Source: Chloroflexi bacterium GWB2_49_20
Lineage (GTDB): Bacteria; Chloroflexota; Anaerolineae; Anaerolineales; Villigracilaceae
Length of the DNA stretch: 64,000 nucleotides
Direction of reading: 5' to 3'
Assembly: GCA_001796335.1 (NCBI GenBank)
Contig: MGMF01000002.1
Span: forward strand, 62,001-126,000
Made by a program: the position numbers and the translations under genes. Positions 2,038 to 48,471 of this stretch are shown piece after piece. Under the pieces are notes generated by a model. That model was given only the letters and a program-made list of their open reading frames with translations. It did not search any database and was not told where the DNA came from. Numbering within the stretch: position 1 is the stretch's first letter; every line of letters starts with the position of its first letter.

Positions 2038-3396
2038 ATGCCAATTCTTAACCGTGCTCGTCTAAAAAGGTTAATTCAAGAAGAAATCCAAAGATTCCAG
2101 CAAGAGCACCCGAAATCCAACGAATTATATCTGCGCGCTCGTCAATCCATGCAGGGGGGCGTTCCCATGTTATGGATGATCCGTTGGCCTGGCTCTTTTC
2201 CCATCTTTGTTAAAAATGCCAGAGGAGCACATTTTGAAGACGTAGATGGGCATTCCTATATCGATTTTTGCCTGGGTGATACTGGTGCCATGACAGGACA
2301 TTCTCCAGTGGAATCGGTTGAAGCTATCAGAAACCAGGTTGGAAATGGCATAACCTTGATGCTCCCGATGGAAGATGCAATTTGGGTTGGGGAGGAGCTT
2401 CAACGACGCTTTGGCTTGAAGTTTTGGCAATTTACACTGACAGCCACAGATGCCAATCGTTTCGCTATTCGTATGGCTCGCCATATAACCGGGCGCCCGA
2501 AAATCCTGGTTTTTAATTATTGTTATCATGGATCCGTAGATGAAACATTTATAACCCTGGATGAGAAGGGATTGCCTGGTCCAAGATCTGGTAATCTGGG
2601 TCCCCCAATCAATCCAATTGAAACCAGTCGGGTGGTGGAGTTTAATGATATTCCGGCATTGGAAGAGGCGCTCATCCATGGGGATGTGGCAGCAGTGTTG
2701 GCTGAACCAGTGATGACAAATATTGGCATTATCCACCCACAACCTGGCTATCATGATGCTTTGCGTAAGTTAACTCGCAAATACGGATCCTGCCTGATCA
2801 TAGATGAAACCCATACCATCTGCACTTCGCCTGGCGGTTACACAGGAAAATTTGGTTTGGATCCAGATTTTCTTACCTGCGGAAAACCACTAGCAAGCGG
2901 GATCCCGGCAGGAGTCTATGGGTTCACACAACAAGTCGCCGATGCTTTCTGGGCACGCATCCAGCATGATGAATCTGATGTGGGCGGGGTTGGTGGCACA
3001 CTGGCCGGAAACGCCCTTTCTATCGCCGCGATCCGCGCAACCTTGGAACATGTACTTACTCAAGCCATGTATGATCGTTGTGAGGCTTTGGCTGATCATT
3101 ACGAGCAAGGAATACTGGACTGTATTTCGGATTATGAACTTCCCTGGATCGTAAAAAGGCTGGGATTCAGGGTTGAATATTGGTTTTGTGAAACAGCACC
3201 AATCAATGGCGGAGAAGCCAATGCAGCCGTGGATAGTGACCTTGACCGATTTATGCACTTGTGGGCGTTAAACCGAGGTATCCTCATGACACCTTTCCAT
3301 AACATGGCGCTCATAGCCGCGGATACAACTGAAGAGGATATCGAATACCATACGCGGATATTCCGTGAGGCAGTCCAGACCTTAATTGCTGAATAA
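2038..3396 (+). CDS. Class-III aminotransferase, glutamate-1-semialdehyde-aminomutase-like
   Basis: This 452-aa PLP enzyme belongs to the class-III fold and resembles the branch around glutamate-1-semialdehyde aminomutase and related transaminases more than GabT. Landmarks are HFEDVDGHSYIDFCLGDTGAM early on, TATDANRFAIRMARHITGR (cofactor phosphate region), NYCYHGSVDET, CLIIDETHT (the PLP-ring Asp) and CGKPLASGIPAG with the catalytic Lys near residue 283. The ATG at 2038 is preceded by GGAG at good spacing. It is probably not hemL, because it lies in an AOR/aminotransferase cluster rather than with heme genes and diverges at the N-terminus. I infer an amino-acid or amine transaminase feeding the neighbouring AOR; the substrate is unknown. 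Confidence 0.8.
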   Translation: MPILNRARLKRLIQEEIQRFQQEHPKSNELYLRARQSMQGGVPMLWMIRWPGSFPIFVKNARGAHFEDVDGHSYIDFCLGDTGAMTGHSPVESVEAIRNQVGNGITLMLPMEDAIWVGEELQRRFGLKFWQFTLTATDANRFAIRMARHITGRPKILVFNYCYHGSVDETFITLDEKGLPGPRSGNLGPPINPIETSRVVEFNDIPALEEALIHGDVAAVLAEPVMTNIGIIHPQPGYHDALRKLTRKYGSCLIIDETHTICTSPGGYTGKFGLDPDFLTCGKPLASGIPAGVYGFTQQVADAFWARIQHDESDVGGVGGTLAGNALSIAAIRATLEHVLTQAMYDRCEALADHYEQGILDCISDYELPWIVKRLGFRVEYWFCETAPINGGEANAAVDSDLDRFMHLWALNRGILMTPFHNMALIAADTTEEDIEYHTRIFREAVQTLIAE

Positions 3397-3445
3397 GAAA
3401 TCACGGGGAACAATGGTATAAGGATATTAGAAGAGAACAGGAATA

Positions 3446-5170
3446 ATGATGGAAAATCGACCATATAATCTCTCGGTTTGGCGTGTAAATATGCACGACA
3501 AGAACATCAGGCAAGAATCGGTTCCCGAATCATGGATACGTCTTGGCGGGCGAGGCTTGATCGCACGCATACTCCTTGATGAAGTGCCCCCTGAATGTGA
3601 ACCCCTGGGAGAATATAATAAATTAATATTTTCTCCGGGTTTGCTGGTTGGGCATATGCTTTCTTCCTGCGATCGAATATCAATTGGAGGAAAGAGCCCT
3701 CTGACCGGAGGTGTTAAGGAAAGTAATGCTGGCGGAACGACCGGTATGCAGATAACGATGCTGGGCATCAAAGCTTTGATAATTGAAGGAATGCCGGTTG
3801 ATAATGACTTTTCTATTCTTTACCTGGATAAAGATGGTGGGCGTTTTGATAAAGCAGAAGAATTTAGAGGCTTGGGGGTTTACGAAGCTACCCAAAGGAT
3901 CAGAGAGAAATACGGAGAAAAATCTGCCATCGCATTGATCGGCCCTGCGGGTGAGATGAAATTAAAAGCTGCTGGAATTCAAAATCTGGATAAAGATGGC
4001 ACTCCAGCAAGAATCGCAGCCCGGGGTGGATTGGGAGCCGTAATGGGTTCAAAGGGATTAAAGGCGATCGTAATAAACGGGTTTAGTGGAGAAAAAGCTC
4101 CCATTGCCAACCCCGAAGCATTTAAACTTGCTCAAAAGGCTTATACCAAGTCGCTATTGGAGCACCCTCAAACAGCATTGTATCGGGATTATGGTACTGC
4201 AGCCATGGTGGAGATGTGCCAGGCTTTTGGTTCATTACCAACTCGTAATTTTTCTGCCGGGATATTTGAAAAGGCTGAAGACATCAGCGGGGAAAAAATG
4301 CGGGAGTTATTACATGCGCGCGGGGGGGCTTCAAATCCAACACATGCCTGTATGCCGGGGTGTACGATCCGCTGCTCAAATATTTTTGGTGGGGAAGATG
4401 GAAAAATGATCGTGTCTCCGCTGGAATATGAGACAATTGGTTTGATGGGTTCCAACCTGGGAATTGGTGATCTGGAAACAATCGCACGGATGTGTTACAA
4501 GGTGAACGACCTGGGTTTGGACTCCATTGATGTGGGAGCTGCCTTAGGGGTGGCGGCAGAAGCCGGATTATTGCAGTGGGGAGATGGGGTTCGTGCTATG
4601 GAGATGATCGACGAGATCTATTCTGGGACACCTTTGGGTAGAATGATTGGCTGCGGAGCATCGCTTACTGGAATGATACTGGGAATTGAACGTGTGCCGG
4701 TGGTGAAAGGACAGGCCATGGCTTCGTATGAGCCGCGTGCAATCAAAGGCACGGGTGTCACTTATGCAACCTCACCTCAAGGTGCTGATCATACCTGCGG
4801 CTTGACCATCCGGGCAAAAGTTGATCATTTAGATCCGAAAGGGCAGGCTGAAATTTCGCGCTCAGGGCAAATCAATATGGCTGGTTACGATACCCTGGGA
4901 GCCTGTATTTTCGCTGGATTTGGTTTTGCGGCATCTCCTGAGTCAATCCGGGATTTATTGAATGCCCGTTATAACTGGAATATCGATACAACAATTCTTC
5001 AATCATTGGGGAGAGAAACTTTGACTATGGAACGCGAGTTCAACCGGCGCGCCGGGTTTACGAAGATAGATGATCGCCTGCCTGAGTGGATGAGATTGGA
5101 ACCAGTCCCACCGCATAATGCGGTGTTTGATGTCCCCGACGAAGATCTGGATATGCTTTTCAATTGGTAA
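3446..5170 (+). CDS. Aldehyde:ferredoxin oxidoreductase (full length)
   Basis: This is a complete 574-aa AOR, slightly shorter than the archaeal enzymes. The N-terminal domain carries the pterin-binding stretch ARGGLGAVMGSKGLKAI (about residues 191-207). The [4Fe-4S] ligands appear as Cys302, Cys306 and Cys310 in CMPGCTIRC, with a likely fourth Cys in DTLGACIFAG near residue 492. The C-terminus has the AOR block EREFNRRAGF followed by DDRLPEW. The start ATG at 3446 follows a GGA-containing site and is followed directly by a second ATG. Together with the upstream aminotransferases it suggests amino-acid fermentation producing reduced ferredoxin. The metal (W or Mo) cannot be decided from sequence. 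Confidence 0.92.
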   Translation: MMENRPYNLSVWRVNMHDKNIRQESVPESWIRLGGRGLIARILLDEVPPECEPLGEYNKLIFSPGLLVGHMLSSCDRISIGGKSPLTGGVKESNAGGTTGMQITMLGIKALIIEGMPVDNDFSILYLDKDGGRFDKAEEFRGLGVYEATQRIREKYGEKSAIALIGPAGEMKLKAAGIQNLDKDGTPARIAARGGLGAVMGSKGLKAIVINGFSGEKAPIANPEAFKLAQKAYTKSLLEHPQTALYRDYGTAAMVEMCQAFGSLPTRNFSAGIFEKAEDISGEKMRELLHARGGASNPTHACMPGCTIRCSNIFGGEDGKMIVSPLEYETIGLMGSNLGIGDLETIARMCYKVNDLGLDSIDVGAALGVAAEAGLLQWGDGVRAMEMIDEIYSGTPLGRMIGCGASLTGMILGIERVPVVKGQAMASYEPRAIKGTGVTYATSPQGADHTCGLTIRAKVDHLDPKGQAEISRSGQINMAGYDTLGACIFAGFGFAASPESIRDLLNARYNWNIDTTILQSLGRETLTMEREFNRRAGFTKIDDRLPEWMRLEPVPPHNAVFDVPDEDLDMLFNW

Positions 5171-41515: not shown

Positions 41516-41532
41516 TATTCAATTGTTAAAAA

Positions 41533-41704
41533 AACCCCACCATGCCGTGTGCTGCAAAGTTTTGAACCTGCTTTCGCAGGTGGGTCCCGCCTCGGAGACT
41601 TCGCCTTGGCTCAGGCCTATCGCGTCGTATTCGTAAGACAAAGACCCCTAATAAAAATGTTGGCTCAAAACCGTGAGCGCAGCATCACGCACACAGCAGG
41701 GCAA
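41533..41704 (-). ncRNA. ssrS: Probable 6S RNA
   Basis: A ~170-nt RNA on the minus strand. The closing stem is TGCTGTGTGC (41689-41698) with GCACACGGCA (41543-41552). The apical stem includes GGGTC (41643-41647) with GACCC (41582-41586). On the 3' side of the central bubble is a small hairpin ACCTGC-GAAA-GCAGGT (41566-41581) followed by TCAAAACTTT. The order GACCC-ACCT-hairpin-AGGTTCAA is typical of 6S RNAs. A TATAAG -10 (41709-41714) precedes it and a seven-U run follows GGTGGGG at the 3' end. 6S RNA binds sigma-70 RNA polymerase and releases it through pRNA synthesis. Confidence 0.68.
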
Positions 41705-41777
41705 CTAACTTATACCATAAACGCAATTTGCTGGGTAGGGAATCCTTAGAAGCACCTTTGCTTCCAACCCATTGGAT

Positions 41778-43121
41778 TCATGGATAGACGCGTTTGATGG
41801 TGCGTGGGAAGGCAATTGCTTCGCGAATGTGCTCGATCCCACAAATCCAGGAAACTGTTCTTTCAAGGCCAATCCCAAATCCACTATGTGGCACAGAACC
41901 ATATTTTCGCAGATCCAAGTACCATTTGAAGGACTCTTCGGGCAGATTGTGTTCATGGATACGTTGAAGCAAGAGATCGTGGTTTGACATTCGTTCAGAA
42001 CCCCCGATGATCTCACCATAACCTTCCGGAGCCAGTAGATCGACGCTCTTGCAAACTTCAGGTCTTCCAGGCCATGGTTCCATGTAAAATGCCTTGACCT
42101 TGGTCGGGTAGCCATATACAAAAACGGGTTTAACGAATTTGCCGGTCAATTCTGTTTCGTGGGGTGCACCAAAATCCATTCCCCATTCAAATTGCAATAA
42201 TTCTTTCTTTTCCAGATCAGTGACTTCAGAACGGATTTGTCCCAACATTTCTGTGGCCTGATCGTAGGAAATTCTTGGGAAGGGTGCTTCTATTTGCTCA
42301 AGTTTGGATAGATCTCGCCCAAGAGATTTAAGTTCTGGTTGGCGGTCTCGAAGAACACGCTTGACAATATGCGTGATGAATTGCTCTTCAATCTCCATCA
42401 GTTGGTCGAGATCACAAAATGCTATCTCTGGTTCAACCATCCAGAATTCGGTCAGGTGGCGGCGAGTTTTTGATTTTTCCGCTCGAAAAGTTGGGCCAAA
42501 ACTATAAACTTTTCCAAAAGCGAAGATATCGGCTTCGTTATAAAGTTGACCTGACTGAGCCAGATATGCCATGCCTTCATCGAAGTAAGGGGTTTCAAAA
42601 AGGGTGGTCGTTCCTTCACAGGCGGCAGGTGTCAGGATGGGTGTATCCATATTGATAAAGCCATTATTATCCAACCATTCACGCATGGCGCTGATGACTG
42701 TGGCGCGGATGCGTAAAACAGCCCATTGGCTTGGCATGCGCAGCCAAAGATGGCGATTATCCAGAGCGAAATCAACCCCATGTTCTTTTAATGACATCGG
42801 GTAATCTTCATTGGCTTCTTGCAGGATTTCTATTTCTTTAATGCCCACCTCAAAACCGCCAGGTATCCCGGGAGCGCGTTTATCTGCACGAACTTTTCCC
42901 GTAATTATGACAGAAGATTCCTTTGGCAAACGCATGATTTTATCAAAGGTCGTTTCATCCAGGTCACCTTTGAAAGCTACACATTGAACGAAACCAGAGC
43001 CGTCCCTGATTAGAAGAAAAACAAGCTTCCCTTTGTCAGTGCGGTTGTAAACCCAACCTTGGATACGGACATCTTGATCCGTGTAATTTGCGATTTTATC
43101 GACCTGGATAATAGATGGCAT
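41778..43121 (-). CDS. asnS: Asparaginyl-tRNA synthetase
   Basis: A 447-aa class-IIb synthetase. The N-terminal OB-fold (VRIQGWVYNRTDKGKLVFLLIRDGSGFVQCV) binds the anticodon. The catalytic core has motif 2 (GPTFRAEKSKTRRHLTEFWMVEPE) and motif 3 (GFGIGLERTVSWICG). The KSKTRRHL and PEIAFC context and the length fit AsnRS rather than AspRS, which lies in the same operon. It charges tRNA-Asn with Asn directly. It is the last gene of aspS-gatC-gatA-gatB-asnS, nine bases after gatB. Confidence 0.95.
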   Translation of the reverse strand: MPSIIQVDKIANYTDQDVRIQGWVYNRTDKGKLVFLLIRDGSGFVQCVAFKGDLDETTFDKIMRLPKESSVIITGKVRADKRAPGIPGGFEVGIKEIEILQEANEDYPMSLKEHGVDFALDNRHLWLRMPSQWAVLRIRATVISAMREWLDNNGFINMDTPILTPAACEGTTTLFETPYFDEGMAYLAQSGQLYNEADIFAFGKVYSFGPTFRAEKSKTRRHLTEFWMVEPEIAFCDLDQLMEIEEQFITHIVKRVLRDRQPELKSLGRDLSKLEQIEAPFPRISYDQATEMLGQIRSEVTDLEKKELLQFEWGMDFGAPHETELTGKFVKPVFVYGYPTKVKAFYMEPWPGRPEVCKSVDLLAPEGYGEIIGGSERMSNHDLLLQRIHEHNLPEESFKWYLDLRKYGSVPHSGFGIGLERTVSWICGIEHIREAIAFPRTIKRVYP

Positions 43122-43130
43122 TTATTCTCC

Positions 43131-44585
43131 TTAATTATTGTTTTTTAATATTTTTTGTAATAGCTGCCGTACAACCTGGGGGTCTGATTTGCCTTTTGTT
43201 TCCCGAGAAACCTGCCCCATGAACCATTGAAAAAGAGATTCTTTTCCTGCCAGATACTGCTTTACCGGGTCAGGATTTTCTGAGAGAATTCGATTTATGA
43301 GATCAGTAAGGTAATTCTCATCGGAGATTTGCAAAAGTCCTTTTTCTGAGATGATATCGCGCACATTTTTATTTGAGATGAATATTTCAACAAGGATTTC
43401 TTTGGCTGTAAAGTCATTGATCACCCTGGATGAAAATAGATCCAATAATTGAGCGAAATTCTCAGGTGTTACAGGAATTTTCTGGATATCAATATTTCTC
43501 TCGTTGATTTGCCGGGTAAATTCACCTGTGAGCCAGTTATAGATCATTTTGGTAGGGCTGGAGGATAAGGTCACAACTTTTTCAAAGAAATCCGCAAATT
43601 CTTTTTCATACGTCAGTGACCGGACTTCCTGCAGGGATAATCCGTACTCTTCCATAAATCGCTTATTCTTTGCATCCGGTAGTTCGGGCAATTGTGAAGA
43701 AATAGTCTGCACCCACGAACGGTCAACAAGAATCGGGGGTATATCAGGTTCTGGAAAGTACCGATAATCGTGTGCTTCTTCCTTGCCTCGTTGTGAGTAA
43801 GTTTCGCCTTTGACTTCATCCCAACCCAGCGTCTCCAAATTGACATCTAGACCATTATTGTATAAATCGATTTGACGATTAATTTCATAACTGGATGCTT
43901 GAGTCAAAGATCGAAAACTGTTGAGGTTCTTGATCTCTGTTCGGGTATTTAATTCCTGGCTTCCGAGAGGACGTACGGATATGTTTGCCTCAAACCGGAG
44001 AACGCCTTTTTCCATATCTCCAGAGTTTACACCAAGATAACGGAGAATGGCCCTGATTTTATTGGCATAAGACAATATGGCTTGCACAGAATGCATATCA
44101 GGTTCTGAGACAATTTCCAGGAGGGGAACTCCGGCGCGGTTAAAATCGATAAGCGCAAAGTTCCCCTTGTGCATTAATTTCGCAGTATCTTCTTCCAGAT
44201 GGGCGCGGCGGATACGAACGCGCTGGCGAGTGCCTTCATTCTCATCTAAAATATCAAGCCAACCATCTGAAGCGACTGGATGGTCATATTGTGATATTTG
44301 GTAACCTTTGGGTAAGTCGGGATAAAAGTAGTTTTTTCGGGCAAAAATATTTACTTCATTGATGGTGCAGTTCAAAGCCAAACCGACCAGGATACTCTGT
44401 TCAACAGCCTTTTTATTCAGGACAGGCATCGCCCCTGGAAGGCCGGTGCATACCGGACAGATCAAGGTGTTGGGTTCAAGCAAAGAAGAATGATCGGCGG
44501 AACATCCACAAAACATCTTGGTTATTGTGAGTAGTTCAGCATGTATTTCCAGTCCAATAATAGGTTCGTATTTGATGGTATTCAT
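43131..44585 (-). CDS. gatB: Asp/Glu-tRNA amidotransferase subunit B
   Basis: A 484-aa tRNA-binding and kinase subunit of GatCAB. It starts with YEPIIGLEIHAELLT, then the metal/tRNA site CPVCTGLPGAMPVLN with the CxxC pair around residues 42-45, followed by KNYFYPDLPKGYQISQYD. The C-terminal YqeY/tail domain (ENFAQLLDLFSSRVINDFTAKEIL) is present. It phosphorylates Glu- or Asp-tRNA and uses ammonia from GatA to form the amide. It lies 15 bases after gatA. Confidence 0.97.
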   Translation of the reverse strand: MNTIKYEPIIGLEIHAELLTITKMFCGCSADHSSLLEPNTLICPVCTGLPGAMPVLNKKAVEQSILVGLALNCTINEVNIFARKNYFYPDLPKGYQISQYDHPVASDGWLDILDENEGTRQRVRIRRAHLEEDTAKLMHKGNFALIDFNRAGVPLLEIVSEPDMHSVQAILSYANKIRAILRYLGVNSGDMEKGVLRFEANISVRPLGSQELNTRTEIKNLNSFRSLTQASSYEINRQIDLYNNGLDVNLETLGWDEVKGETYSQRGKEEAHDYRYFPEPDIPPILVDRSWVQTISSQLPELPDAKNKRFMEEYGLSLQEVRSLTYEKEFADFFEKVVTLSSSPTKMIYNWLTGEFTRQINERNIDIQKIPVTPENFAQLLDLFSSRVINDFTAKEILVEIFISNKNVRDIISEKGLLQISDENYLTDLINRILSENPDPVKQYLAGKESLFQWFMGQVSRETKGKSDPQVVRQLLQKILKNNN

Positions 44586-44600
44586 GTTTCCAATGTTGGC

Positions 44601-46064
44601 TTAAGTAATCAACGGGTGCATGTTGTGCCATTCCGTCTCTGCCTGGTAGGCATAGCCGATCTGAAAGAGAATTTCTTCGCTTAAATGGTTTCCAATCAAT
44701 TGCATCCCAACCGGTAACCCTTCTGAAAATCCGCACGGGAGAGATAATGCGGGGACACCAGCCAGGTTTGTTGCCACCACAAAAATATCTGACAGGTACA
44801 TGGTTAAAGGATCTTGTTTTTTTTCGCCAATTTTGAAAGCCGTGGTAGGGCAAGTCGGAGCAAGCAGAACATCGCATTTTTCAAAAGCAGATCTAAAATC
44901 CTCTCTTATCAAGGAACGTACTTTTTGCGCTTTTAGATAATAAGCATCATAGTAACCAGCAGAAAGTGTATACGCACCCAGCATGATTCTGCGTTTGACT
45001 TCTTCGCCAAAACCTTCCTGTCTAGTTTGGAGAATTAAGTCAATAACACTTTCAACCTTTTGGTTGGTTGAATACCCAAAACGGGTGCCATCAAACCGGG
45101 CAAGGTTTGCACTCGCTTCTGCAAATAAGATCAGATAATACACTGGAAGAGCTGCCCTTGTATGGGGCAAGGATACCTCTTGGACTTGCATACCCAGTTT
45201 TTCAAAAACCCGAATGGCATCTTGGAGGACTGTCTCAACTCCTGCTTCCATCCCTGCTTGAAAATACTCCCTGGGGATCCCAAGACGTAATCCATTAATG
45301 GACTTTTCCAGGGATGTTGTATATATTGGAACGGGATCTGGGAGTGAAGTGCCATCTTTTGGATCTTTTCCGGCAATCGTTTGTAATACTGTGGCACAAT
45401 CGTAAACATCTTGAGTCAGTGGCCCGACCGAATCAAAAGAAGATACCAGGGCAATGTGTCCGTAACGAGATACGCGTCCATATGTGGGCTTCAAGCCAAC
45501 AATATTGCAAAAACCAGCCGGCATACGGATGGATCCGCCGGTATCTTCTCCAATGGCAAAAAGGCTGAGACCGGCTGAAACTGAAGCTGCCGAGCCTCCA
45601 CTGGAACCTCCGGGGACCCTTTCCAAATTCCACGGGTTATGCGTATTAAAAAATGCCGAATTCTCACAGGATGAGCCCATTCCAAATTCATCCATGTTGT
45701 GTTTTCCCAGTAAGACTGCACCCGCATTGTTTAATTTTTCGACAACAGAAGCACTGTATTGAGGGATGTAGTCTTGAAGAATTTTAGATCCGCAAGTGGT
45801 GCGGATACCCCGGGTAGAGAAACAATCTTTGACTGCGTAAGGAATCCCCGTGAGAGGTGTAATGTTTTCTCTTGAATGCAACCGGATATCTGCTTTGCGA
45901 GCCTGCTCCAGAGCCCGCTGTTCAACAACAGTCAGGTAAGCCCGAATTTTTGGATCCAGTCGATGAATGTTTGCCAGGACAGCTGATGTTAATTCAACGC
46001 TGCTGATCTGCTTTTTTACAAGCAATTCATGGGCTTTACGAATGCTTAGATTGTACAATTCCAT
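44601..46064 (-). CDS. gatA: Asp/Glu-tRNA amidotransferase subunit A
   Basis: A 487-aa amidase-signature protein that releases ammonia from glutamine. The Ser-cisSer-Lys triad is visible: Lys in GIPYAVKDCF (about residue 78), and the serines in GGSSGGSAASVSAGLSLFAIGEDTGGSIRMPAGFC. The start is put at ATG 46064; an in-frame TTG directly precedes it. It follows gatC by a short gap within the five-gene operon. Confidence 0.97.
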   Translation of the reverse strand: MELYNLSIRKAHELLVKKQISSVELTSAVLANIHRLDPKIRAYLTVVEQRALEQARKADIRLHSRENITPLTGIPYAVKDCFSTRGIRTTCGSKILQDYIPQYSASVVEKLNNAGAVLLGKHNMDEFGMGSSCENSAFFNTHNPWNLERVPGGSSGGSAASVSAGLSLFAIGEDTGGSIRMPAGFCNIVGLKPTYGRVSRYGHIALVSSFDSVGPLTQDVYDCATVLQTIAGKDPKDGTSLPDPVPIYTTSLEKSINGLRLGIPREYFQAGMEAGVETVLQDAIRVFEKLGMQVQEVSLPHTRAALPVYYLILFAEASANLARFDGTRFGYSTNQKVESVIDLILQTRQEGFGEEVKRRIMLGAYTLSAGYYDAYYLKAQKVRSLIREDFRSAFEKCDVLLAPTCPTTAFKIGEKKQDPLTMYLSDIFVVATNLAGVPALSLPCGFSEGLPVGMQLIGNHLSEEILFQIGYAYQAETEWHNMHPLIT

Positions 46065-46099
46065 CAATAATCCATATCCAATTAGCCGGGTTTAAATAT

Positions 46100-46423
46100 T
46101 TACCTGTCATCAAATATCAAGGGGACTTTCACGTAATAACCCTCATGCTGAGGTAAATTGTTTAGGAATTCTTCGCGCGACATGGATGGGAGCACCTGGT
46201 CATCGCGAAAAACATTATTCATCGGACAGTTTTCATTGGCAGGTGGAACTTCCCGTGTGTCAATTTCATTCAATAATTGGAAATATTCAATTATTTGTGA
46301 AAATTGTTGGCTGAACACCTTGGTCTCTTCATCAAGAATCTTGAGGCGGATAAGATAGGCAATATACCTGACCGTGTCTGTGCTAATCGAAGGTGTTGCA
46401 GTATCTATGGGTGAGATAACCAT
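46100..46423 (-). CDS. gatC: Asp/Glu-tRNA amidotransferase subunit C
   Basis: A 107-aa small subunit that belts GatA and GatB together. It has the family pattern VRYIAYLIRLKILDEETKVFSQQFSQIIEYFQLLNEIDT and a C-terminal hook with the NVFRDDQV motif. It sits between aspS (17-base gap) and gatA, in keeping with a single transcript for the whole transamidation set. Confidence 0.95.
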   Translation of the reverse strand: MVISPIDTATPSISTDTVRYIAYLIRLKILDEETKVFSQQFSQIIEYFQLLNEIDTREVPPANENCPMNNVFRDDQVLPSMSREEFLNNLPQHEGYYVKVPLIFDDR

Positions 46424-46440
46424 TTATTATTCCTACAAAA

Positions 46441-48216
46441 TTATTTTCCAAGATCGATTTTGATATGTAAATCTTTCAACTGGTTGGCATCAGCAGCAGA
46501 AGGAGCGGATGCCATGACATCACGCGCAGCCTGGTTTTTTGGAAAGGCGATCACCTCGCGTATATTTTGTTCGTCAGCCAGAAGCATGCATATGCGATCA
46601 ATTCCGGGGGCAATACCACCATGCGGAGGAGTACCGTATTCAAATGCCTCGAGCATGTGGCCAAAACGCTCTTGGGCAACTTCAGGATCGAGGCCGATTA
46701 ATTTAAATACTTTTTCCTGAAGATCCCGGTTATGGATTCGAATGGAACCTCCTCCGACTTCATAATTATTCAATACCAGATCATATTGTGCACCGCGTGC
46801 TTTACCAGGATCTTTGTCCAATAATGGAAGGTCTTGTGGTAATGGGGATGTAAAAAGGTGATGGCTGGGATCCCAACGCTTTTCCTCTTCGTTCCACATT
46901 ACGAAGGGGAAATCAATCACCCAACAAAAAGCAAGTACATCAGGGTCCCTTAATCCTAGAGCATCACCCATCTTAACCCGAAGACGTCCCAAAGATTCAA
47001 ATACCAGGGATGTTTTGTCTGCAACAAACAATAATAGGTCTCCCTGTTTAGCTTCCATCCTGGTTGTTATGGCCTGAATTTTTTCTTCAGATAAGAACTT
47101 CGTAAAAGATGATCGTAATTCTCCCTGACTGGTCAATGCAATGTATGCAAGACCTTTGGCTCCCAGTTCCTGTACAAATACAACCAGCGCATCGATCTGT
47201 TTTCTTGTATAGTCTCCGCAACCTGTGGCATTGATCCCGCGCACAGATCCACCTGTGGACACAGCATTCTCAAATACACTGAAGCCGCATCCGACAGCCA
47301 GATCGCTGATATTTTTTAAGATCATTTCAAAGCGAATATCAGGGTTATCTTTTCCATATTTTTCCAAGGCTTCTGTGTATGTGAGGCGTGGCCAGGGTTG
47401 GGAAAGCAAGCGTTTATGCGGGACAACTTCAGCAACCAGATTGGTGAACATTCCTTCAACCAACACCATCACATCATCACGCTCAACGAACGACATTTCC
47501 ATATCCAACTGGGTAAATTCTGGCTGGCGGTCCCCACGCTGGTCTTCATCACGGAAACAGCGGGCAATTTGAAAATAACGCTCCATTCCAGCCACCATGA
47601 GCATTTGTTTTAATTGCTGCGGTGATTGAGGCAGGGCGTAAAACTCACCCGGATGGACGCGTGATGGCACCAGGTAGTCACGTGCTCCTTCGGGAGTAGT
47701 TTTAAAAAGGATGGGGGTTTCAATTTCAAGAAAACCTTTGTTATCCAAATAATTTCGAATAAATTTGATGACACAGTGTCGAAGGATAAGGTTATCCTTC
47801 ATTTTTTCGCGCCTTAAATCCAGATAGCGATATTTTAAACGAGTATTTTCATCTGCCATCTGTTCCTCACCATTGATCATAAATGGCAGGGGTTTGGCTG
47901 GATTTAAAATAACTACTTCGCTGGCTATGATTTCAATCTCACCCGTTGCCATTTTAGGGTTGACCATCCCATCAGGCCTCTTTTGTACAGAGCCTATGAT
48001 TTGAATAACCCACTCGAGACGAACATTCGAGATGATTTTCGCATATTTCTGGGGGAGATCGGGATTAAATACAACTTGAACCATTCCAAACCGGTCGCGC
48101 AAATCAATGAAAACTACACCGCCGTGATCCCGACGGCGATGAACCCAACCCGCCAGGGTTATTGTTTGACCAATATGAGATGATCTAATTTCTCCACAGG
48201 TATGTGTTTTGTACAT
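46441..48216 (-). CDS. aspS: Aspartyl-tRNA synthetase
   Basis: A 591-aa bacterial-type AspRS, including the large GAD insertion characteristic of bacterial enzymes. The N-terminal OB domain reads TLAGWVHRRRDHGGVVFIDLRDR. Catalytic motifs include FQIARCFRDEDQRGDRQPEFTQLDMEMSF (motif 2) and GIAPGIDRICMLL (motif 3). The ATG at 48216 has GGAGAGCACC in front. It is the first structural gene after the Asn-rich leader peptide. Whether it also aspartylates tRNA-Asn cannot be read reliably. AsnRS in the same operon makes that unnecessary for Asn, leaving GatCAB mainly for Gln-tRNA if GlnRS is absent. Confidence 0.97.
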   Translation of the reverse strand: MYKTHTCGEIRSSHIGQTITLAGWVHRRRDHGGVVFIDLRDRFGMVQVVFNPDLPQKYAKIISNVRLEWVIQIIGSVQKRPDGMVNPKMATGEIEIIASEVVILNPAKPLPFMINGEEQMADENTRLKYRYLDLRREKMKDNLILRHCVIKFIRNYLDNKGFLEIETPILFKTTPEGARDYLVPSRVHPGEFYALPQSPQQLKQMLMVAGMERYFQIARCFRDEDQRGDRQPEFTQLDMEMSFVERDDVMVLVEGMFTNLVAEVVPHKRLLSQPWPRLTYTEALEKYGKDNPDIRFEMILKNISDLAVGCGFSVFENAVSTGGSVRGINATGCGDYTRKQIDALVVFVQELGAKGLAYIALTSQGELRSSFTKFLSEEKIQAITTRMEAKQGDLLLFVADKTSLVFESLGRLRVKMGDALGLRDPDVLAFCWVIDFPFVMWNEEEKRWDPSHHLFTSPLPQDLPLLDKDPGKARGAQYDLVLNNYEVGGGSIRIHNRDLQEKVFKLIGLDPEVAQERFGHMLEAFEYGTPPHGGIAPGIDRICMLLADEQNIREVIAFPKNQAARDVMASAPSAADANQLKDLHIKIDLGK

Positions 48217-48274
48217 GGTGCTCTCCGTTTTCAATAGTATTTTGCAACGCCATCAAATGATTTTATATAAAATA

Positions 48275-48305
48275 AATCGCCCTCCGCTGGTAGCTTTGGG
48301 CGATT
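48275..48305 (-). terminator. Attenuator terminator in the aspS operon leader
   Basis: On the minus strand AATCGCCC (48298-48305) pairs perfectly with GGGCGATT (48275-48282), with an inner GCT-ACC-AGC mini-stem in the loop. The tail is TATTTTATAT. It lies between the leader peptide stop and aspS. Its left arm can pair instead with upstream leader sequence (see the antiterminator entry), so it is most likely conditional. Confidence 0.6.
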
Positions 48306-48358
48306 GTTTGTTTATAAAAAAATAATTACCACAACAAACATTGCCCACCAAGCGGGGG
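48298..48358 (-). promoter_or_regulatory. Alternative pairings (1:2 and 2:3) of the aspS leader attenuator
   Basis: Region 1 is CCCCC (48354-48358), region 2 is GGTGGGC followed by AATGTTTGTT (48333-48349) and region 3 is AACAAACA followed by ATCGCCC (48298-48312). Regions 1 and 2 form CCCCC-GCTT-GGTGGG with a one-base bulge. Regions 2 and 3 form TGTTTGTT/AACAAACA plus GGGC/GCCC, an antiterminator that occupies the left arm of the terminator. Regions 1 and 2 lie in the last codons of the leader peptide, so ribosome position decides which pairing forms. Confidence 0.55.
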
Positions 48359-48412
48359 TTGACCATTATTATCGTTATTATTTCCATTGAGCTTGAAAGC
48401 CATTGAAATCAT
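48326..48412 (-). CDS. Asn-rich leader peptide of the aspS-gatCAB-asnS operon (28 aa)
   Basis: A 28-residue peptide beginning MISMAFKL, followed by N-G-N-N-N-D-N-N-G (six Asn and one Asp in eight codons), then QPPLGGQCLLW and TAA. The first ATG (48412) is one base after the transcription start predicted from the extended -10 element, so it would be translated leaderless. An internal in-frame ATG at 48403 is the alternative. There is no Shine-Dalgarno. The downstream genes make Asp-tRNA and Asn-tRNA, so an Asn/Asp codon run is exactly what a ribosome-mediated attenuator would sense. It is too short for standard gene calling. Confidence 0.6.
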   Translation of the reverse strand: MISMAFKLNGNNNDNNGQPPLGGQCLLW

Positions 48413-48419
48413 TAAAGAA

Positions 48420-48428
48420 ATTATAGCA
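48420..48428 (-). promoter_or_regulatory. Extended -10 promoter of the aspS operon
   Basis: On the minus strand TGCTATAAT fits the extended -10 consensus TGnTATAAT. No good -35 is seen at the standard distance. The predicted start is near 48413, immediately before the leader ATG. It overlaps back-to-back with the divergent promoter of the glycosyltransferase genes. Confidence 0.55.
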
Positions 48429-48442
48429 TAAAACCCAACCAA

Positions 48443-48471
48443 TTGACCCGCCATAATAATACGATTAGAAT
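48443..48471 (+). promoter_or_regulatory. Predicted promoter of the glycosyltransferase operon
   Basis: TTGACC (48443-48448), a 17-base spacer and TAGAAT (48466-48471), each with one mismatch from consensus. It predicts a start about 17 bases before the TTG start of the first membrane glycosyltransferase gene. Confidence 0.55.

Follow-up and report, generated by a model that had tools for sequence, protein, structure and literature searches.

A candidate Asn- and Asp-responsive leader-peptide attenuator ahead of aspS in Chloroflexota

Layout of the aspS leader and its operon

On the minus strand of the 64,000-nucleotide stretch of Chloroflexi bacterium GWB2_49_20 DNA analyzed here (the window), an extended −10 element is followed by a 28-codon frame, by an antiterminator/terminator pair and then by the genes aspS, gatC, gatA, gatB and asnS (Table 1). 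The gaps between the five genes are small and every one of the genes scored over the NCBIfam cut-off of its family, in agreement with the aspS-gatC-gatA-gatB-asnS operon proposed in the first-pass annotation of this DNA. The asnS product also lay barely over the cut-off of NF003483, a model of aspartate--tRNA(Asn) ligase (355.7, cut-off 353), and the AspRS of the window scored too low to pass any of the models for aspartate--tRNA(Asn) ligase.

The elements which that annotation had named within the leader were all there on the minus strand, with the right coordinates and the right letters. The short frame between the promoter and the first gene has its ATG 7 nt downstream of the −10 and is rich in cognate codons: the run reads Asn-Gly-Asn-Asn-Asn-Asp-Asn-Asn and scores 7 (Asn/Asp codons per 10-codon stretch). 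A longer frame of 42 aa could be read from an upstream ATG at 48454; it begins 5′ of the −10 and was set aside. An intrinsic terminator, made by pairing of regions 3 and 4, stands ahead of the first structural gene, and in the window it is an 8-bp stem of AATCGCCC (48305-48298) with GGGCGATT (48282-48275).

Table 1. Features of the aspS leader and operon in the window (window coordinates), with the putative attenuators of the same scaffold at asnA and ilvD
Feature	Position	Strand	Basis or score
Extended −10 promoter element TGCTATAAT	48420..48428	minus	sequence
Leader peptide frame, 28 aa MISMAFKLNGNNNDNNGQPPLGGQCLLW + stop	48326..48412 (ATG at 48412)	minus	sequence, ORF
Asn/Asp regulatory codon run AAT GGA AAT AAT AAC GAT AAT AAT	48365..48388	minus	sequence, enrichment
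Region 1 CCCCC; weak 1:2 hairpin with GTGGG	48354..48358	minus	sequence; p 0.22
Region 2 GGTGGGC + AATGTTTGTT, within 3′ end of leader frame	48333..48349	minus	sequence
Region 3 AACAAACA + ATCGCCC; forms the antiterminator with region 2 or the terminator with region 4	48298..48312	minus	pairing
Region 4 GGGCGATT, terminator 3′ arm	48275..48282	minus	pairing
U-rich terminator tail TATTTTATAT	48265..48274	minus	sequence
aspS, aspartate--tRNA ligase	46441..48216	minus	TIGR00459 769.4 bits, cut-off 373.85
gatC	46100..46423	minus	over NCBIfam cut-off of its family
gatA	44601..46067	minus	over NCBIfam cut-off of its family
gatB	43131..44585	minus	over NCBIfam cut-off of its family
asnS, asparagine--tRNA ligase	41778..43121	minus	NF003037 534.6 bits, cut-off 414
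asnA with Asn-run attenuator (L168/L176)	G036:C12 about 69112-70280	minus	
Tandem ilvD attenuators (L171, L208), genome of the window	G000:C20 about 3100-3490		

Occurrence and codon content among relatives

The AspRS of the window was used to search 61 genomes and gave matches in all of them (61/61). Four genomes in which the matches were weak, like those of other synthetases (G004, G031, G034, G048), and one with a partial gene (G038) were left out. Upstream regions were taken from the remaining genomes and from 80 named GTDB contigs, which yielded 139 aspS starts; among their upstreams, 129 were distinct and measured 200 nt or more. A short ORF with at least six Asn/Asp codons per 10-codon stretch was found in 47 of the 129; the same test was passed by 1 of 2580 dinucleotide shuffles and by 1 of 1974 other windows of those loci. 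A codon-blind detector, which looks for a terminator together with a region complementary to the terminator 5′ side, picked out 68/129 distinct upstreams and 1/645 shuffles.

When leader, antiterminator and terminator were required jointly, the rule was satisfied in 44 of the 56 genomes with a retrieved aspS start and in 31 of the 34 within the family of the window (the genome of the window counted in both), as compared with 1 of 695 shuffles. Thus the Asn enrichment and the pairings, which had been predicted to recur in close relatives, did so. Among the 12 genomes that failed the rule, two (G022, G045) have Asn-rich leaders whose pairing is slightly under threshold. On the named contigs the rule was satisfied at 33 of 79 aspS starts and failed at 46. 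Four of these 33 are under the stricter detector score and are doubtful (L082, L109, L120, L121), and another (L128) is without a promoter-like hexamer. A MAG that bears the name Anaerolinea thermophila (L090), Anaerolineaceae bacterium X2_MetaBAT.10 (L100) and an Ardenticatenia bacterium (L106) are among the named carriers; the failures include Anaerolinea thermolimosa (L089), Thermosporothrix (L129), Dictyobacter (L133), two Oscillochloris records (L102, L103) and two Dehalococcoidia records (L123, L140). The annotated element is genuinely present at the stated place, and its conservation goes far past chance expectation. The copy in the window is itself a diverged, weak example of the attenuator: its detector score of 34.6 is under the cut used for counting, and a score of 34 is reached by 8 of 645 shuffles.

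A covariance model run on 400 genomes of the phylum matched 27, two of them (G037, G419) by plain terminators only. Its first pass scores few candidates, and presence was therefore judged on the aspS upstreams. Extra matches in G037, G419, G424 and G013 looked like plain terminators without a matching leader frame; the weak matches L173, L174 and L196 were left aside from that verdict. Two genomes (G033, G013) carry two aspS copies each, every copy with an Asn/Asp leader attenuator of its own (L049, L050), and the terminator of one copy has CCGCCC/GGGCGG in place of TCGCCC/GGGCGA.

For the codon and pairing counts a set of 61 leaders from 59 loci was used, namely the 68 structure-positive upstreams less eight, plus the copy of the window. 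The eight comprise five without a promoter-like hexamer (L084, L107, L115, L128, L133), one without a frame or a visible Asn/Asp run (L017), one with Asp only (L091), and one whose frame was misread, N-D-D-D-N being readable in a different frame (L036). In the 61 leaders Asn makes up 19.5% and Asp 9.4% of the residues; the corresponding shares in nine proteins encoded in the window are 4.1% and 5.0%. RAY triplets occur 469 times in frame but only 43 and 37 times in the other two frames, and all synonymous codons are used (AAT 186, AAC 131, GAT 85, GAC 68). This in-frame excess, with both synonyms in use, suggests that the peptide is under selection. In 61/61 leaders Asn and Asp are each represented by one codon or more no farther than 45 nt from region 2 (no farther than 36 nt in 60), and Asn outnumbers Asp in 52. 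Because the Asp codons are as constant as the Asn codons, the putative sensor is best described as bispecific for Asn and Asp, a specificity which fits the aspS-asnS pair; an Asn-only reading is ruled out by the presence of Asp in every leader.

The same scaffold stands ahead of other genes. The covariance model, whose start lies some 60 nt 5′ of the terminator so that no more than the final one or two codons of the run fall inside it, gave two matches ahead of genes other than aspS. The asnA gene of G036 (TIGR00669, 393.9 bits, cut-off 292.8), the sole match to the asnA protein at E≤1e-30 across 81 genomes with that of the window included, is preceded by the leader MFDYSFANFNNNNNNNNAVLRGVGRSASNLQT and the antiterminator GCGTTGGGCG:CGCCCAGCGC. 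In the 45 nt ahead of region 2 this leader has nine Asn codons but none for Asp; the single Asp that it does contain is residue 3, 58 nt upstream of region 2. In the leader that G036 has at aspS, MTYQPFFANDNNNDNDDPRIVGRSPAG (L043), Asn and Asp are both in the run. The asnA gene can thus be regarded as a natural codon swap, in which the scaffold is shared with aspS and the codons are matched to the gene. The ilvD gene of the window's genome has two tandem attenuators with the Ile/Leu/Val-rich leaders MITNLSTLILITIISVLIIKDKFVVGMALVRIN and MNFIQIFDIVIILIIALLLTKERSLVVGLIRIVTER. Fourteen ilvD loci were read of 21 found, that of the window's genome included, and were tallied by eye: 11 have at least nine Ile/Leu/Val per twelve leader codons and 13 have a 2:3:4 element scoring at least 38, and in L211, L215 and L219 no Ile/Leu/Val leader was seen. 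Judged from the sequences, the codon run follows the gene and the scaffold is constant (Asn and Asp at aspS, Asn at asnA, Ile/Leu/Val at ilvD), and the downstream genes belong in each case to the pathway of the regulatory codons (aspS, gatCAB and asnS; asnA; ilvD).

These observations bear on whether the leader might be a general sensor of translation, in which any slow or absent ribosome alters termination and the Asn/Asp run is just a stretch that is slow to translate or flexible. Ribosomes can indeed be slowed by homopolymer-like runs. However, a generic slow stretch need not match the product of the gene behind it, whereas the run varies with the gene from aspS to asnA to ilvD. A general sensor is therefore improbable, and the Asn/Asp run is better read as a set of regulatory codons.

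Competing pairings and the predicted switch

A promoter-like hexamer is present in 62 leaders, of which 47 have precisely TGCTATAAT at the −10 and 53 have TGNTATAAT. The first in-frame start after the −10, on which the spacing count is based, lies 5-12 nt past the hexamer in 48 of the 62; a later in-frame start ahead of the first Asn/Asp is present in 11 of these 48. In five leaders the first start is at 20 nt, with GAGG (four leaders) or GGAG (one) 5′ of it. A spacing of 5-12 nt leaves room for almost no 5′ UTR, and hence the leaders, that of the window included, are probably leaderless, with start sites placed by the position of the −10.

Region 2 has a counterpart CGTTGGGCGA in many relatives, and the CGCCC of region 3 is invariant among 36 aligned leaders. 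In this alignment standard pairs make up 95.3% of 2:3 and 95.7% of 3:4, shares that are partly circular because the copies were selected by having the pairings and the relatives are not independent. Both-side changes affect nine cells of 3:4, where shuffles give 0.9 (nine reached by 0/500), and eight cells of 2:3, where shuffles give 3.7 (eight reached by 4/500), although kinship alone can exceed shuffles. Counted by pairs, both-side changes in 2:3 were 2 against 1.6 in shuffles and 278/500 shuffles reached that number, so that no excess was seen. One 2:3 position keeps a standard pair in 60/60 copies, be it UA, CG, UG or a rarer type. Of 61 copies examined at one 3:4 position, 45 have UA, 11 have CG and 5 have no pair; both counts are partly circular as well. 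Both-side changes in relatives thus speak for the proposed pairing 3:4 and, less strongly, for 2:3. An antiterminator 2:3 which excludes the terminator and overlaps the end of the frame was found across relatives and is marginal in the window, where the GGGC:GCCC part is exclusive with the terminator but the AATGTTTGTT:AACAAACA helix can coexist with it.

The 1:2 hairpin is the weakest part of the model as read from these sequences, and its support is partial. In a focused test it reached p<0.05 singly in 20 of 61 leaders, for example as AACGAT:ATCGTT and TGACGCCC:GGGCGTTG, and in a looser earlier test in 5 of 61. The remainder, to which the window belongs (p 0.22), gave no such value. Region 1 (CCCCC) of the window is accordingly present in its letters, as the first-pass annotation had it, but its role in a 1:2 pairing there is weakly supported.

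The geometry of the leader is consistent with a switch set by the ribosome. The last Asn/Asp codon ends a median of 8 nt upstream of region 2, the stop codon lies a median of 23 nt past the start of region 2, the terminator starts a median of 21 nt past the stop, and the stop is found between the region 2 start and the terminator in 61/61 leaders. If the ribosome is assumed to reach about 10 nt downstream of its A-site codon, a ribosome on the run can free region 2 and a ribosome at the stop covers it.

This arrangement can be set against another reading, in which the frame is a functional small protein or an aid to reinitiation and the terminator a constitutive damper. Leader genes have been proposed as reinitiation aids (PMC4833913), and a Gly-Arg near the leader C-terminus recurs in 36/61 leaders, often as V-G-R-S. 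That ending is, however, region 2 read in frame; the stop is 5′ of the terminator in every leader, so that a median of 21 nt and the whole terminator separate it from aspS; and a damper would have no use for three-way complementarity. We consider this reading very improbable, and return to the ribosome-mediated attenuator.

In the folding model the stability of 2:3 equals or exceeds that of 3:4 in 59 of 61 leaders (means of −26.8 kcal/mol for 2:3 and −18.4 kcal/mol for 3:4). When the ribosome is stalled on the run and region 4 is yet to be transcribed, formation of 2:3 is predicted in 51, 58 and 59 of 61 leaders for stalls at the last, second-last and third-last codon respectively, and in 54/55 for the fourth-last; a ribosome at the stop lets 3:4 form in 61/61. 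When the complete leader, stalled ribosome included, is folded to equilibrium, on the other hand, the terminator is favoured in most copies, and the antiterminator exceeds 0.5 in only 19/61 (stall at the second-last codon) or 7/61 (last codon). Since the terminator wins at equilibrium, the switch must be kinetic, with 2:3 formed first, as in the textbook case. Without a ribosome the terminator fails in 11/61 leaders in the equilibrium model, among them the window, where it is almost absent (0.01). The probability that 2:3 forms before region 4 is likewise marginal in the window copy (0.48 in the model), and single-sequence folding of its leader (z −1.38) is uninformative for a switch.

The following course of events is predicted. 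Transcription would start at, or a few nt upstream of, the leader AUG, and a ribosome would trail RNA polymerase on the leader. When Asn-tRNA and Asp-tRNA are sufficient, the ribosome should reach the stop, in or just past region 2; region 2 would then be masked, 3:4 would pair, and transcription would end ahead of aspS. When charged tRNA-Asn or tRNA-Asp is scarce, the ribosome would stall on the Asn/Asp run, with region 1 covered and region 2 free, and 2:3 would pair before region 4 exists. The terminator would then be lost, and aspS-gatCAB-asnS here, or aspS-asnS in many relatives, would be transcribed.

Relation to known attenuators and T-boxes

Leader-peptide attenuators of the trp/his/thr/leu type, to which those of ilv and pheST also belong, combine a short frame rich in cognate codons, an antiterminator competing with an intrinsic terminator, a stop codon masking region 2 and genes of the cognate pathway downstream. 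The aspS leader shares these traits. It differs in having Asn and Asp codons together, in standing ahead of a synthetase gene pair (with gatCAB in some genomes), in occurring in Chloroflexota and in being, as far as the −10 spacing tells, mostly leaderless. On these grounds it is very likely a ribosome-mediated transcription attenuator of the trp/his type with Asn and Asp as its regulatory codons.

E. coli pheST is a case of a synthetase operon with such a leader. Attenuation of trpS and leuS in some Streptomyces is described in PMC1262725. These systems resemble the present one in that a synthetase gene is under leader-peptide attenuation with codons of its own amino acid; here, in contrast, two synthetases for two other amino acids are served by one bispecific leader, in another phylum. 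For Sinorhizobium meliloti trpL, PMC7298713 states that the transcript begins at the ATG of the leader frame, which makes it a leaderless attenuator peptide as well. It has Trp codons, a biosynthesis gene and an alphaproteobacterial host, and its counterpart here has a start predicted from sequence.

Literature searches on Asn, Asp, synthetases, T-boxes, Chloroflexi attenuation and leaderless leader peptides gave, by titles and abstract openings, no Asn/Asp leader attenuator; Lopatovskaya et al. 2010, on attenuation of amino acid and aminoacyl-tRNA operons, could contain one. As far as these sources go, the mechanism is of a known kind; what is new lies in its being specific for Asn and Asp, in its target, a pair of synthetases, and in the phylum. 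If the attenuator acts as predicted, Asn and Asp would join the amino acids read by leader-peptide attenuators, and the mechanism would extend to an operon of paired synthetases and transamidase and to Chloroflexota, for which none was found described. The covariance model and the simple rules used here can also serve to annotate Asn/Asp leaders.

Genes such as these in this phylum had more often been expected to be under T-box control or no known control, and it might be supposed that a T-box, or another aptamer binding tRNA or a metabolite directly, controls the operon and that the small frame is incidental. T-box leaders also respond to tRNA charging and act via a terminator, but they bind the tRNA directly and without translation. 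Support for a T-box is to be had from other genes: ileS of the window's genome carries one (RF00230 at L204 1149-1407, 93.2 bits, cut-off 93), T-box leaders at the isoleucine synthetase, trpE and a trpB-like gene of Dehalococcoides appear in PMC2494555, and a T-box on one aspS gene of Clostridium acetobutylicum is reported there too. His, Trp, Thr and Leu leader families are among those of Rfam (PMC3766115). In the aspS leader, however, no Rfam family, neither T-box RF00230 nor an amino-acid leader family, was found at its cut-off; six relaxed matches lay far below, and none of them was a T-box. In addition, the leader frame is conserved at the protein level and spans the distance from the promoter to region 2. 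Direct control by a T-box or other aptamer is thus hardly credible for aspS, and the expectation is half borne out, with a T-box at ileS of this genome and no Rfam family at its cut-off in the aspS leader. By eye, T-box-like GGGTGG-ACC motifs are seen at thrS (L198) and leuS (L205), which are not over the cut-off. The ileS T-box and the leader attenuators suggest that the two kinds of regulation coexist in one genome.

With respect to the genes served, aspS-asnS is the most frequent of the downstream arrangements that comprise several genes (50 of 139 starts); aspS was alone at 74 of the 139, a number counted on contigs and loci that are often short stretches. We think it probable, with somewhat less assurance than for the attenuator as such, that the leader is a mostly leaderless, bispecific sensor of Asn and Asp which ties the synthesis of AspRS, of AsnRS and, in some genomes, of GatCAB to how far the two Asx tRNAs are charged, and that it belongs to a clade-wide Anaerolineae repertoire in which one 2:3:4 scaffold carries swapped codon runs alongside T-boxes in the same genome.

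A 6S RNA (RF00013, 77.7 bits) lies at 41530-41705 of the window on the minus strand, 72 nt 3′ of asnS. It was also found 3′ of aspS in L020 and in two of nine long loci searched (L100, L111). Its presence near aspS in several loci indicates that the neighbourhood is partly shared, and the 6S RNA may be co-transcribed with the operon behind the putative attenuator.
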